From an archaeon (GTDB taxonomy: Archaea; Thermoproteota; Nitrososphaeria; Nitrososphaerales; Gagatemarchaeaceae), in assembly GCA_021819035.1 (NCBI GenBank), contig JAKASL010000001.1, positions 248,001 to 312,000 on the forward strand: a stretch of DNA of 64,000 nt, read 5' to 3'. Shown here in pieces: positions 41,236-45,335 of this stretch. The position numbers were made by a program, and so were the translations under genes. The notes beneath the pieces are model-generated. The model made no database searches and was not told where the DNA came from. It worked only from the letters and a program-made list of their open reading frames with translations. Within the stretch, counting starts at the first letter, position 1, and every line of letters starts with the position of its first letter.

Positions 41236-41450
41236 GCAGCAAGAGGGAAATAGAGACACTCACCCCGGCCGAGGTCGTCCAGATAGTGGGTAGGACTGGG
41301 GTCGCAGGGGAGATAACACAGGTGAGGGTGAAGATACTAGAGGGGAAGGAGAAGGGGCGCATACTCACCAGGAACGTGAAAGGGCCGATTCGGATGGCCG
41401 ACGTCCTCGTGCTCAGAGAGACGGAGCGGGAAGCTCGGAAGCTCAAATGA
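41232..41450 (+). CDS. rps28e: 30S ribosomal protein S28e
   Basis: A 72-residue S28e: [34 protein letters not shown] and the C-terminal [11 protein letters not shown]. In many archaea L24e follows directly; here 3.7 kb containing the vWA/tubulin module intervenes. Confidence 0.95.
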
Positions 41451-41526
41451 GCCCCTCCAGCCCCTGTCTGTCCCCTCCCTTCCATCCATAGTGCGCGCCC
41501 CGACTGTCAGGCGTTCGCTTCGGGCC

Positions 41527-42111
41527 CTAGCTGCGGATAGTCTTCTCGAAGTCCGCCAGGTTGTGGGGCCTGGTGTAAGTCCCGTGGGTGAGTGTGGCGA
41601 TGTCTCTGAGCTCCTTCGACGCCTCGTTGGAGAGCTCTATCACGTCTATCTCGACTGGGGAACCCTTCAGCTCGTCGGCTATCGTCTTGACGGGCTCCCC
41701 GTCGTTCCCCCCGTCGCTGATCAGTTTGATCACCTTCTCCTTCCTGATGGAGTCGGAGATGTTGTCGATGCCGTACCTGATCGCGTCGACCAGCGGGCTC
41801 CCCCCTTTGCACTGCAGCTCCTCCAGCCTGTACAGCTCGAGCGAAGCGGGGGCGGGGTTCAGGGGGACCACCACATCTATCTGCGTCGAGCCCGGGGTCC
41901 CCAGCAGCCTGTAGAACGACACCCCCAGCCTTGTCGGCCAAGGGAAGTAGGAGACGGGCCAGTACTCCATGACGAAGTTGAAGAGCCCCGCCTTGACCAT
42001 CTTCATCTTGGTCATGCCTGAGGAGTGGAGCTTCCCCCCCATGCTCCTCGAGCCGTCGATGACGAAGAGCAGGTCCTTCGCCTTTGACTCGTCATAGCTC
42101 AAGCTTGCCAC
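41527..42111 (-). CDS. Small von Willebrand factor A (vWA) domain protein
   Basis: A 194-residue protein consisting of one vWA domain. The MIDAS is visible as FVIDGSRSMGG (D19, S21, S23), with Ser105 in CKGGSPLVDA at the usual Thr position and ISDGGND (D133) completing the metal site. No signal peptide or helix, so cytoplasmic. vWA domains bind protein partners through a divalent metal. It diverges from the tubulin-like gene under one shared TATA box and converges on S28e. GTG 42111 was chosen; TTG 42102 is nearly as good. Confidence 0.85.
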   Translation of the reverse strand: MASLSYDESKAKDLLFVIDGSRSMGGKLHSSGMTKMKMVKAGLFNFVMEYWPVSYFPWPTRLGVSFYRLLGTPGSTQIDVVVPLNPAPASLELYRLEELQCKGGSPLVDAIRYGIDNISDSIRKEKVIKLISDGGNDGEPVKTIADELKGSPVEIDVIELSNEASKELRDIATLTHGTYTRPHNLADFEKTIRS

Positions 42112-42127
42112 CTAGAAGTTGACAAAC

Positions 42128-42138
42128 GTATAAAAAAG
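42128..42138. promoter_or_regulatory. Shared bidirectional TATA box for the vWA and tubulin-like genes
   Basis: The sequence gtataaaaaag is the only AT-rich element in the 47-bp gap. Its centre is about 26 nt from each start (42111 on the minus strand, 42159 on the plus), so one element probably drives both. Confidence 0.6.
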
Positions 42139-42158
42139 ATAGCAATAGAGGTGAAACG

Positions 42159-43523
42159 TTGGCGTTCAGGACAGCAAACCAGGCGCCGCTAGCTCCTAAC
42201 CCCGTCATCATGGCTTGTATGGGCCACGCGGGAGTAGGCATCGGGGCCGAGGCGTATCGCTGGGTCCTCATCGACGTGGGGGCCGACCCCACTGCGCCGA
42301 CGCTGAAGGGCGAGAAGCAGCAGCTGGAGGTCCTCCGCAGGTACGGAAGCACCATTCTCAGGTTCGGCGCGTCCCTCCACAAGGGGGAGACGCCTCTCGT
42401 CCCTAGGGCGCTGCTCGTTGACCTCGACCCCCGCTCCGCGAATCTCATCCTGCAGTCGTACCCGCAGCTCTTCGCCATGAAGGACAAGCACGCTGTCTAT
42501 GGCCTGGGAGGGGCCGCCAGGAACTGGGCCGAGGGGAGGAGCAGGTTCAGGAACGAGATCGTGGGGAAGCAGGACATCGCATCCAGGATACAGGCGATCT
42601 CGCCCGAGCCGGTGAGAGGGTTCGTGGTCCCGTTCAGCATGGGCGGGGGGACCGGCGGCTCTTTCTCGTCCGAGTTCATGTCGTACGTGAAGGGGAGCAA
42701 CGTCCTCGGGCACGCCACCATAGCGACGTTCGGGATACTCCCTGAGTTCGGCTGGGACCCCGTCATCTATGGCCCGGCCCACATCAGCATAGTGCTCAAC
42801 CTGGCCTACCAGATCAGGTACTCCGACGCCCCGATATTGATGGACAACAAGGAGCTCAGGTTCCAGGCAGACAGGCTGAAGGACCAGCTCGACGCACGGT
42901 CTTCCATCGTGGACGAGCTCCCCAAGCAGATCCGCGTCGGCTGGCACGACTACAGGAACAAGAACCTGCTGGCAGCCCACGTCATCGCAGAGTTCATGGA
43001 TTCGTTCATCCGGGAGACAGAGTGGGATATGTCCAACTACAGGACCTGGCTGGCAGCGAGCAAGCCGAAGTTCGTGGTCCCATGGCTCATACCTCTCGTC
43101 CCGAAGGGGAGCCCCGACATAAAGTCGATAGAGGAGGCGGCCGAGGAAGGGAACGACGGGCTGCTCTTCGACCTCGAACAGGAGGGGGAGATGGAGAAGG
43201 GGAAGACGGACTCCGCCTGCGTCCTGATCAAGTGCGCCGGGAGCGTGGGGGCGGAGGAGAGGGAGTTCTTCAAGAAGATACTTGGCGAGAAGTACGGCAT
43301 CCAGGAGAAGAGGGTGATATTCATCAAGATACCCACGATGCCCAACGAGCCGGCGTCAGCGCTCGTCCTCCTCAACATCAAGGGGGTGGGGAAGAAGCTC
43401 CTCCCCATCGTCACAGAGGCGGAGGACGCCTGGGACTCGTACAAGGACGAGTACCAGAACCGGGACCTGACCCACGAGGAGTTCAAGAAGGCTGTCATCG
43501 AAGTCTCGAGCCACCTTGGCTAG
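42159..43523 (+). CDS. Tubulin/FtsZ-superfamily GTPase, tubulin-like
   Basis: A 454-residue protein with the tubulin fold's landmarks in order. T1: MGHAGVGIG (21-29). T3: PRALLVDLDPR (82-92), like the PRAVFVDLEP of tubulin. Then RNWAEGRSRFRNEIV (121-135), like tubulin's NNWARG. T4: GGGTGGSFS (162-170). The ribose region is ILMDNKEL (226-233), like VVDNEAL. T7-like: ETEWDMSNYRTWL (286-298), keeping Asp290. These match tubulin better than FtsZ or CetZ. Start TTG 42159 follows gaggtg. It is followed after 7 bp by a coiled-coil gene. Role unknown: filament formation is inferred from the family. Confidence 0.85.
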   Translation: MAFRTANQAPLAPNPVIMACMGHAGVGIGAEAYRWVLIDVGADPTAPTLKGEKQQLEVLRRYGSTILRFGASLHKGETPLVPRALLVDLDPRSANLILQSYPQLFAMKDKHAVYGLGGAARNWAEGRSRFRNEIVGKQDIASRIQAISPEPVRGFVVPFSMGGGTGGSFSSEFMSYVKGSNVLGHATIATFGILPEFGWDPVIYGPAHISIVLNLAYQIRYSDAPILMDNKELRFQADRLKDQLDARSSIVDELPKQIRVGWHDYRNKNLLAAHVIAEFMDSFIRETEWDMSNYRTWLAASKPKFVVPWLIPLVPKGSPDIKSIEEAAEEGNDGLLFDLEQEGEMEKGKTDSACVLIKCAGSVGAEEREFFKKILGEKYGIQEKRVIFIKIPTMPNEPASALVLLNIKGVGKKLLPIVTEAEDAWDSYKDEYQNRDLTHEEFKKAVIEVSSHLG

Positions 43524-43530
43524 GTAAGAG

Positions 43531-44067
43531 ATGAACCTCACAGAACTGGAGGTTGCAGCCGGGAGGCTGCTTGAAGAGCAGAAGAGGCTGAAGACCATCG
43601 AGAGCGAGCTCGAAGTGCTCTCGCAGGAGATCAAGCAGGACCCGAAGAGGAACGAGAAGGACCAGGCGTTCTACGCCCTGATAGGCCTCGACTGGTCCGA
43701 CCCGGGGCACCAGGACAGGGCGGCGACCTTGAGGAAGGAGCGCGAAGACGTCCTGGACTCCATCCGCGAGGTGCACGAGCAGATGCTCGGCGGGCTCAGC
43801 TCGGGGAGCCTGGTAGTCCCTCTGGACCCGGCCCCCATCGCCGGGGAGGGCTCCTTCACCTTCAGGTTCAGGTCCGGTGCGACCTTCCCGAAGTCGGTCG
43901 AAGAGCTCTCTGCGATGCTCGGGATCCCCGCCCCGCTCAGGCTGGGGGACGTGACTATCTCCGACGACAGGGTGGTTGTCGCCGAGTCAGACGAATATTT
44001 CGCCAAGAAGAAGCTCGTAGACGCCTTCGAGGACCTGAGGAAGGCGGTCAAGCGGAAGCTCTCCTAG
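43531..44067 (+). CDS. Coiled-coil protein of the tubulin module
   Basis: A 178-residue protein, not recognised. Residues about 1-35 (LEEQKRLKTIESELEVLSQE) and 60-90 (RAATLRKEREDVLDSIREVHEQM) are predicted helical coiled coil. A more compact, hydrophobic domain follows (FTFRFRSGATFPKSVEELSAML, VTISDDRVVVAESDEY), ending in a basic helix (DLRKAVKRKLS). Its start lies 7 bp after the tubulin-like stop, so it is probably cotranscribed and may be an adaptor or regulator of the GTPase. Confidence 0.7.
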   Translation: MNLTELEVAAGRLLEEQKRLKTIESELEVLSQEIKQDPKRNEKDQAFYALIGLDWSDPGHQDRAATLRKEREDVLDSIREVHEQMLGGLSSGSLVVPLDPAPIAGEGSFTFRFRSGATFPKSVEELSAMLGIPAPLRLGDVTISDDRVVVAESDEYFAKKKLVDAFEDLRKAVKRKLS

Positions 44068-44109
44068 ACGAAGGGCGGGGATGCTCCTCCCAGTATCCGG
44101 TACGGTCAG

Positions 44110-45054
44110 GTGTCCGGGGGCTTGTCAGCGGTAAAGCGGATCGCGGGCTTCTTCGACAGGGTGAAAGCACCTCTCGCCAAGATGTCCAGACCTGGTTCCA
44201 CGAAGGACGAGGACCTGATACTGGCGGTCATAGGCAGGATCGAGGTCCCCGGGGAGGACGCTTCACTCCCGCCAGCTCCTGAAGATAGCGACGAGATGTA
44301 CCGCAGGCTGATGCGTCGCCTCGACTGGCAGCTCAAGAACTCGGGCCTGACCCCCGAGGAGCTCCTCAGGTCCTACCCCTACGAGGCCCGGTCGCTCCTC
44401 CTCTTCAAGTCCTACGAGAAGACGAAGAAGAAGAAAGAGTCTACCGCCTTCAAAGAAAGGCTGATCGAAAAGGGGTTCAAGGCGGTCCAGCCCGGGGTCT
44501 GGGTGCTCCCCCCGACGAGGACCCCCCCGGGGCTCGACTCACAGGACGCCATACGGCTCTGGTTCAGGCAGAACCTGGCGAAGAAGGTGCCGAAGAGCGT
44601 CGCCTACGTCTTCCCGTTCATCGCCTCGGTGGACCTGAAGAGGATGGTCTCGGAGAGGAGAGGGGTCAGGAAGATGCCCATGGCAAGGACGCTGTTCGGC
44701 GCCCTGTCCCTCGAGGAGGTGGCCCCCCCAAGGCACCTCTATGCGGCGATGAAGGCCAAGGGGAGGTCGGTCAAGGAGACCATATTGACAGGGGACGTCC
44801 CGTTCCTGTCGAGCGCCTTCGCAGAAGAGCAGGAGCTCAGGGCCATCCAGGCCAACGAGCTGGAGATAGGGGCGCGGCTGAGGAGCGCCACCGGCTTGCG
44901 GGCGGTAAACCTGGAGGACCTGGCAAACCTCGGCCCGGAGACCCTGGCCAAGGCCCTCGAGGGGTTCGTCCCCCACCCGAAGGACTTCGGCCAGCGGCTC
45001 ATCATAGAGGCCCAGTACTGGCTCAGGCATCTCGGAGGGACCGTCCCGACCTGA
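44110..45054 (+). CDS. Conserved-looking unknown protein of the tubulin module
   Basis: A 314-residue, mostly basic soluble protein; no family recognised. The N-terminus is basic and amphipathic (GLSAVKRIAGFFDRVKAPLAKM). Around 115-140, FKERLIEKGFKAVQPGVWVLPP recalls the ferredoxin-like pattern of Cas2/PaaX proteins, but the similarity is weak. The C-terminal half is alpha-helical and charged. GTG start 42 bp after the coiled-coil gene in the same direction. It may be a DNA- or membrane-interacting partner; this is speculation from position. Confidence 0.65.
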   Translation: MSGGLSAVKRIAGFFDRVKAPLAKMSRPGSTKDEDLILAVIGRIEVPGEDASLPPAPEDSDEMYRRLMRRLDWQLKNSGLTPEELLRSYPYEARSLLLFKSYEKTKKKKESTAFKERLIEKGFKAVQPGVWVLPPTRTPPGLDSQDAIRLWFRQNLAKKVPKSVAYVFPFIASVDLKRMVSERRGVRKMPMARTLFGALSLEEVAPPRHLYAAMKAKGRSVKETILTGDVPFLSSAFAEEQELRAIQANELEIGARLRSATGLRAVNLEDLANLGPETLAKALEGFVPHPKDFGQRLIIEAQYWLRHLGGTVPT

Positions 45055-45059
45055 AGCCA

Positions 45060-45090
45060 GGGGCCGCAAGCCCCGGGCCCCCTAGGGGCC
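45060..45090 (+). terminator. GC-rich hairpins after the tubulin module
   Basis: Two adjacent hairpins, ggggc/gcccc (45060-45074) and ggcccc/ggggcc (45076-45090), lie between the stop of the 314-residue gene and the L24e TATA box. No long U tract follows. They may separate the module from the ribosomal cluster. Confidence 0.4.
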
Positions 45091-45098
45091 GGCGCCGT

Positions 45099-45108
45099 CT
45101 TTATATCC
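45099..45108 (+). promoter_or_regulatory. TATA box of the L24e-Ndk-aIF5B operon
   Basis: The sequence ctttatatcc lies about 50 nt before the L24e ATG; the predicted leader contains gaggtg (45135-45140). Confidence 0.65.
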
Positions 45109-45152
45109 AGAGTCTCAAAGGCCATCGAAAGGTCGAGGTGCGGTAGCCTGAG

Positions 45153-45335
45153 ATGTATGTCCCAAAGAAATGCGTCTTCTGTGGTAAAGAGGTCAGGCTC
45201 GGTTCGGGCATCCTCTACGTGAAGAACGACGGTTCCACTAAATCATACTGTTCCTCCAAGTGCAAGACCAACGACCTGAAGCTGGGTCGCGACCCGCGCA
45301 AGCTGAAGTGGGCAAGGGTGCCTGCTAAGAGATGA
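45153..45335 (+). CDS. rpl24e: 50S ribosomal protein L24e
   Basis: A 60-residue zinc-finger protein. CVFCGKEV and CSSKCKTN hold four cysteines, with GTGILYVKNDGS-like SGILYVKNDGS between. It overlaps ndk by 4 nt and, with L7Ae and S28e upstream of the inserted module, forms the typical archaeal cluster. Confidence 0.95.
   Translation: MYVPKKCVFCGKEVRLGSGILYVKNDGSTKSYCSSKCKTNDLKLGRDPRKLKWARVPAKR

Follow-up and report, generated by a model that had tools for sequence, protein, structure and literature searches.

We analysed a 64,000-nucleotide stretch of an archaeal genome (assembly GCA_021819035.1, contig JAKASL010000001.1, positions 248,001 to 312,000; family Gagatemarchaeaceae), here called the window, in which a four-gene module built around a tubulin-like gene lies between the genes for ribosomal proteins S28e (end at 41450) and L24e (start at 45153). 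A gene for a 194-amino-acid von Willebrand factor A (vWA) domain protein (41527..42111, minus strand) is divergent from three genes on the plus strand, encoding an artubulin of 454 amino acids with a TTG start (42159..43523), a coiled-coil partner of 178 amino acids (43531..44067) and a 314-amino-acid protein with a tentative central Cas2/PaaX_M-like domain (44110..45054). An earlier reading of the DNA (the original prediction) had described these four open reading frames (ORFs) between S28e and L24e, and all are present at these positions. Pfam matches above the curated cut-offs were obtained for the vWA protein (VWA, PF00092, E 2.3e-8) and for the Tubulin/FtsZ GTPase domain (PF00091, E 1.7e-10). 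The coiled-coil and 314-amino-acid proteins had no Pfam match above cut-off; the former was recognized by its AlphaFold2 model and its adjacency to artubulin across loci, the latter by weak PaaX_M matches and by Cas2 chains in Foldseek. The TATA box of the tubulin operon, read from the sequence as TATAAAAAA (42129..42137, plus strand), is part of a ACAAACGTATAAAAAAGA element that is found exactly or with one or two changes in 10/10 other main-group loci (L106, L107, L111, L112, L114-L119) and is divergent in L121-L123. The TTG start is shared by the window and 10 other main-group loci, and its position ~30 nt past the TATA box suggests a nearly leaderless transcript.

Comparisons of four genome pairs show purifying selection on all four genes, with dN/dS values of 0.044-0.055 for the tubulin, 0.066-0.135 for the coiled-coil protein, 0.085-0.157 for the 314-amino-acid protein and 0.091-0.238 for the vWA protein. 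Compared with aIF5B as a yardstick (0.072-0.104), artubulin is constrained at least as strongly. The GC content of the module (0.621) equals that of its surroundings, both overall and at third positions, which gives no hint that the module came recently from a genome of different base composition. All four are genuine genes, and their arrangement is not due to chance.

When the PDB was searched with the window GTPase, both as a single sequence and as a profile, a Heimdall alpha-tubulin ranked first. The best chains among the matches listed were Heimdall alpha-tubulin (6.8e-22), AtubA (1.7e-17) and gamma-tubulin (6e-14), and in the profile search Lokiarchaeal and gamma-tubulins came after Heimdall alpha-tubulin. 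No chain labelled FtsZ was present among the best 60 of 170 or the best 60 of 173 matches, where a few rows are labelled just 'Tubulin-like protein'. The window GTPase is therefore nearer to eukaryotic and Asgard tubulins than to FtsZ, and its predicted place in the tubulin superfamily was borne out both by PF00091 and by tubulins as the closest solved chains. The motifs GHxGxGxGAE, DLDP, GGGTG and DNxxLR, which we take to be tubulin-type GTP-binding loops, lie within the stretch that aligns to the Heimdall tubulin. Full-length homologues, including those of Nitrosotalea devanaterra, Nitrosotenuis chungbukensis, metagenome-assembled genomes (MAGs) of Nitrosarchaeum and others, are ~51-56% identical over residues 9-449, a range that covers the full-length rows outside the window's family and family f13. 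Artubulin was detected in 86/400 genomes of a class sample (E 1e-10) and in 23/398 genomes of a phylum draw, all 23 in the window's order (E 1e-8). A second tubulin-family gene, presumably FtsZ, is present elsewhere in the window genome, as is a Snf7 match (C3:585231, ~294 kb from artubulin), indicating that artubulin is an additional cytoskeletal element. Two archaeal artubulin loci, L159 (BMAH01000059.1) and L121 (DAIDAO010000036.1), stand in records titled 'Gammaproteobacteria bacterium' and 'bacterium', which are probably mis-binned or mislabelled.

The window GTPase is an artubulin, a tubulin family that is already known (PMC3349469); the assignment is based on comparison with sequences of Nitrosarchaeum, Nitrosotenuis and Nitrosotalea rather than with the two published Nitrosoarchaeum sequences. 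Published work is covered here by the main texts of PMC3349469, PMC2875224, PMC9871819, PMC13394414, PMC3835317, PMC9856176, PMC7613921, PMC4571572, PMC6468392, PMC10606840 and PMC7203096. According to these texts, artubulins were first reported from Nitrosoarchaeum (Yutin and Koonin, 2012; PMC3349469) and are also present in Ca. Nitrosotenuis uzonensis (PMC3835317). The window protein resembles the published artubulins in belonging, by genus, to the same tubulin family at the identity level given above, in being encoded besides FtsZ, in its patchy distribution and in its insertion into an otherwise conserved neighbourhood. The Asgard tubulins are its closest solved relatives by sequence, but eukaryote-like microtubules are reported for them, whereas artubulins are placed on a very long, unresolved branch (PMC13394414).

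The neighbourhood of artubulin was compared in 80 named loci, kept from 85 relatives; some of the 80 come from one isolate or are near-identical. A coiled-coil gene lies directly 3' of artubulin in 76 of the 80, at a spacing of 2-18 nt, and in the remaining four (L160, L180, L182, L184) the contig stops at or within artubulin. All 86 artubulin genomes of the class sample carry the partner (partner E 1e-5; 400 genomes), which is adjacent and on the same strand at 85/89 artubulin matches (83/86 genomes); the four exceptions are artubulins cut by, or within ~50 nt of, a contig end, and their contigs are equal in length to those of the four named loci without the partner. The named loci and the class sample overlap in many genomes and so are not independent of each other. 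Artubulin is present in two full-length copies in G026 and in G384 (a MAG, 5% contamination), and every copy has its own adjacent partner. The pair is constant while the other neighbours vary between groups. A Snf7-like gene is immediately upstream of artubulin in L170-L176 (7/80; Pfam confirmation for L176), and in L176 there are also two genes that we take to be deaminase-like and DNA-polymerase-like. Nre adjoins the pair in Nitrosotenuis-type loci (10 clustered loci, of which one was tested), and other genes flank it in Nitrosotalea and f13 loci. Several loci of the window's family dropped out of the neighbour clustering because of long spurious antisense ORFs and were read by hand instead. 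The module had been predicted as a unit of four genes; this holds almost throughout the genus, but of the four genes just the artubulin/coiled-coil pair is widespread.

The AlphaFold2 model of the coiled-coil protein (mean pLDDT 92.8) consists of a helical hairpin (residues 3-50 and 60-90) and a C-terminal alpha/beta domain (~94-178). A kinetochore-like identity (Spc24, Zwint, Mis12, FTA4) was rejected, since matches at E 0.02-0.1 in 1-3 of 33 members are equalled by unrelated coiled-coil families.

The 2012 proposal that artubulin works with ESCRT-III in cell division, which would make the coiled-coil protein a minor accessory, was based on the Snf7-like gene directly upstream of artubulin (PMC3349469), the arrangement of the seven loci L170-L176. 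The L176 neighbourhood, with its Snf7, deaminase-like and DNA-polymerase-like genes, is like the one given in a legend of that article. Family f13 supplies a second lineage with Snf7 near the coiled-coil family: in G279 a Snf7-like gene (L231:3461-4093, with the coiled-coil gene forward; E 8.7e-37) is separated by ~2.8 kb from the gene for the coiled-coil protein. However, the other 73 loci have no Snf7-like ORF within at most 10 kb on each side, often less, the Snf7 match of the window genome is distant from artubulin, and there are genomes, such as G002, G003 and G005, that keep Snf7 without artubulin. We consider a division role with ESCRT-III and a minor coiled-coil accessory unlikely, and attention moves from Snf7 to the coiled-coil protein, given the number of loci in which each is adjacent to artubulin (7/80 and 76/80). 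Where the published artubulin loci have a Snf7 neighbour, the window has a vWA gene in divergent orientation and an operon extended by a third gene. The main text of PMC3349469 does not treat the downstream coiled-coil gene as a partner, although a legend has an unnamed 'conserved hypothetical protein', and genes of unknown function beside archaeal tubulins, which often have coiled coils (PMC9871819), may include this partner.

To follow the module within the genus, 41 genomes (the window genome and 40 relatives) were surveyed, 25 of which belong to the genus. All four genes are present in 14 of these 25 genomes and none in 10; in the last one, G011 (53% complete), a piece of the vWA gene at the edge of a contig is all that is present. 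As several genomes are incomplete, some absences may be assembly gaps. In 13 of the 14 module genomes (12 other loci and the window) the module lies between S28e and L24e. Six genomes of the genus lack the module and have both flanking genes, S28e and L24e, on a single contig. The distance between the matched ends is 16-193 nt in five of them (G262, G022, G003, G015 and G002) and 993 nt, again with no module in between, in G005. In other genera of the same family the gap is 12 nt (G196) and 645 nt (G237), both without artubulin. The site could not be judged in G012 and G273, where contigs end. In G017 of the same genus and G316 of another genus, the module is located next to the lysyl-tRNA synthetase (LysRS) gene with its gene order kept, while other ORFs occupy the S28e/L24e gap, which measures 964 nt in G017 and 1427 nt in G316. 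Protein searches and gene neighbourhoods across archaeal genomes, proposed along with the original prediction, thus confirmed that the four genes co-occur and relocate together, at two sites, and placed the GTPase within the tubulin superfamily; the short gaps in five of six module-free genomes of the genus agree with the insertion of a unit beside the translation cluster.

The downstream border of the insertion is the TATA box TTTATATCC of L24e-Ndk-aIF5B (45100..45108, plus strand), which recurs at empty sites. Of six such sites, G022, G003 and G015 have the element and G002 nearly so; it is absent from G262 (gap 16 nt) and G196 (gap 12 nt). The module had been thought to be inserted inside the translation cluster. 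It does lie between S28e and L24e, but because the insertion is just upstream of the L24e TATA box, it occupies a transcription-unit boundary and not the inside of an operon.

That the four genes are merely chance neighbours could be argued from the vWA gene, found in 18 loci of one family alone, and from the 314-amino-acid gene, found in two genera alone. The all-or-none distribution in 24/25 genomes of the genus and the same gene order at two chromosomal sites speak against this, and a chance neighbourhood, which we regard as hardly credible, is already largely refuted, above all for the artubulin/coiled-coil pair.

In G010 (L206) the 3.98 kb from L24e upstream to the contig end contain neither S28e nor the module, and hold an ORF beside L24e that weakly matches phage integrase (E 0.0019, below cut-off) as well as a HepT-like ORF, so that the boundary may be a repeated insertion site. 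Unrelated ORFs are also present in the gaps of G017, G005 and G316. A homing-endonuclease identity of the ORFs in the G316 and G017 gaps and beside the L121 module was tried and dropped (no Pfam match, 3/3).

Trees of 15 genomes were compared, with aIF5B as the sole marker for G353 and with the largest aIF5B segment used where an insertion splits the gene; a rooted tree comprised 29 sequences. In the tree of artubulin plus partner, G017 falls outside G316 and the main group, whereas the marker tree has it within the genus. Either grouping is rejected by the other data set (approximately unbiased (AU) test, p 0.0006 and 0.0004), suggesting that the unit was probably transferred between lineages, although old duplicates or long-branch effects could also give rise to such a conflict. 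The only LysRS found in the G017 genome is 74-80% identical to that of five of six genus members, 73% to that of G316 and 71% to that of the sixth genus member, G005. This likeness to the genus makes contamination unlikely as the source of the G017 module contig.

The vWA gene occupies the same divergent position in 18/80 named loci (L106-L123), all of one family, and in some relatives the protein is just ~38% identical. Its motifs DGSRS and SDGG resemble, and are taken by us to be, a metal ion-dependent adhesion site (MIDAS), and D19, S21, S23 and D133 are invariant in 11/11 alignment rows including the window. The 314-amino-acid gene was found in 16/80 named loci plus G316, in two genera alone. 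A match to PaaX_M was obtained for 13/14 members at E <=0.1 (best 2.3e-4), the window protein scoring 14.8 bits, below the cut-off of 24. Foldseek returned Cas2 chains with a probability of up to 0.91 but E values of at least 0.34, for a model of uneven quality (best pLDDT 80.7; of the five models, two are near 80 and the others at 56-58). We tentatively describe the protein as a central Cas2/PaaX_M-like ferredoxin-type domain (~90-180) with a helical C-terminal part. The vWA and 314-amino-acid genes are lineage-specific additions to the artubulin/coiled-coil pair. A defence system was considered and rejected, the PADLOC matches being weak (best 0.0097, Cas2_II, for the 314-amino-acid protein).

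A tubulin relative with small operon partners, one of them with a Cas2/PaaX-like fold that could bind nucleic acid, would fit a DNA-segregating cluster like plasmid TubZRC, with a tubulin filament, an adaptor and a centromere. Such a role is improbable for several reasons: there are no iteron-like repeats in 41400-45200, the 314-amino-acid gene is missing from 64/80 artubulin loci, and the module is located on a 1.1 Mb chromosomal contig, not on a plasmid. In addition, artubulin had no match among 72,556 records of plasmids and 50,697 of phages, and 44 pattern matches in viral contigs yielded no confirmed relative; a virus or plasmid origin was discarded on the same grounds.

The tubulin-superfamily gene beside a vWA gene, together with a coiled-coil component, also recalls the FtsZl1/vWA membrane-remodelling system of Makarova and Koonin. 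The window tubulin had no match at E <=10 to Tubulin_2, which we take to be the FtsZl1 domain model, and 1/19 family members matched at E 0.25; its nearest solved chains are tubulins. According to the main text of PMC2875224, FtsZl1, encoded with vWA, GTPase and OmpA proteins, forms a separate branch of the superfamily, and in most members of its family the coiled coil is part of one long polypeptide with the tubulin-like domain; here the tubulin is 454 amino acids long and the coiled coil is encoded by a separate gene. The operons described there often contain kinases, GTPases or OmpA proteins, whereas the annotated immediate neighbours of the window locus include no identified Ser/Thr kinase, GTPase or OmpA gene. 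Membership in the FtsZl1 system is thus highly improbable and was rejected, and the vWA pairing of artubulin looks independent of FtsZl1. The original prediction knew of no system with this gene set. That view needs narrowing in that the artubulin family is known and a tubulin-superfamily/vWA pairing is described for FtsZl1 (PMC2875224); it stands for the partner and for the artubulin/vWA pairing, for neither of which a description was found in the main texts on archaeal tubulins. A tubulin with an accessory gene and a partly conserved neighbourhood is also known from BtubA/BtubB with its kinesin-light-chain-like tetratricopeptide repeat (TPR) protein (PMC3349469), but that system has two tubulins and a TPR protein, while the accessory protein of the window has a helical hairpin and an alpha/beta domain.

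The reading we prefer, with a probability of roughly 0.6, is that of an artubulin operon with a dedicated coiled-coil partner, to which the vWA and 314-amino-acid genes were added and which is carried as a unit. It builds on the observed gene content, family, linkage, paired duplication, sites, selection and tree conflict. Its core would be artubulin, a GTPase of tubulin fold and the probable building block of GTP-dependent protofilaments, together with the coiled-coil protein translated directly after it. The latter may use either its C-terminal alpha/beta domain or its hairpin to bind artubulin, and may then cross-link, cap or anchor the filament. In the window's Nitrososphaerota family the divergent vWA protein would probably serve as a switch or adaptor that depends on metal (MIDAS), and the Cas2/PaaX-like protein would have been added to the operon in two genera. 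The gene set would move as one unit between chromosomal sites, and probably between lineages, having come to lie here between S28e and the L24e-Ndk-aIF5B promoter. The artubulin system would act beside, and not in place of, the FtsZ-like and ESCRT-III-like proteins of the cell.

Several points weigh against this reading. Polymerisation, binding, anchoring and metal dependence are what we infer, and the membrane-remodelling role put forward in the original prediction is hypothetical. The artubulin-tubulin alignments stop near residue 236 and leave the catalytic T7 residue unplaced, with the invariant RETEWDMSN at 285-293 as a candidate for the T7 loop. A fold search with the coiled-coil model gave no confident relative (0/615 matches at E 0.001), and the tree conflict falls short of significance when the vWA protein is taken by itself (AU p 0.057). 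A strict pair is contradicted by 42/128 genomes with the coiled-coil family in which artubulin was not detected. Of these, 31 belong to family f8 and match chiefly the C-terminal domain in a shorter protein, and six belong to family f2, where the protein is full-length; the coiled-coil family thus has some role that is independent of artubulin. By hhalign, the f8 short form (six members) and the f2 form (three members) match the partner with probabilities of 99.4% and 99.8%, respectively. In the other five, the gene lies ~100 nt from a contig end in G385 and G279, where artubulin may be unassembled, G036 has a decayed copy, and G124 and G144 have matches of ~40 positions.

Taking these observations together, artubulin, which belongs to the archaeal tubulin groups under discussion as nearest to eukaryotic tubulins, may be one half of an old two-component cytoskeleton, whose other half is a coiled-coil plus alpha/beta family that binds tubulin and without which artubulin never occurs. 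The partner family would be older or longer-lived than the pairing, because two other families have kept it in the absence of artubulin, and vWA would have been recruited independently of FtsZl1. We put this wider view forward tentatively, at somewhat less than even odds. Artubulins bear on the origin of eukaryotic tubulin, and the main texts of the artubulin literature report no tested function or partner that we could find. A constant, co-duplicated partner makes the role of artubulin testable in cultured ammonia oxidisers (Nitrosotenuis, Nitrosotalea, Nitrosarchaeum).

The relatives of the partner that occur without artubulin have neighbourhoods of their own. The short relative in f8 (L223-L227, L235, L236) lies beside genes that we take to be Rpp21/S19e-like and Nep1-like; six of these seven loci were viewed in full and one in part. 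The full-length relative in f2 (L218, L228-L230) is one gene away from genes that presumably encode archaellum-component-like proteins. Downstream of the module, the aIF5B gene of the window is without an insertion, and an insertion of ~1.5 kb is present near the start of the aIF5B gene in L114 (13615-16974), L022-L025, L209 and L215, which in L114 is an intein with a LAGLIDADG domain according to Pfam.

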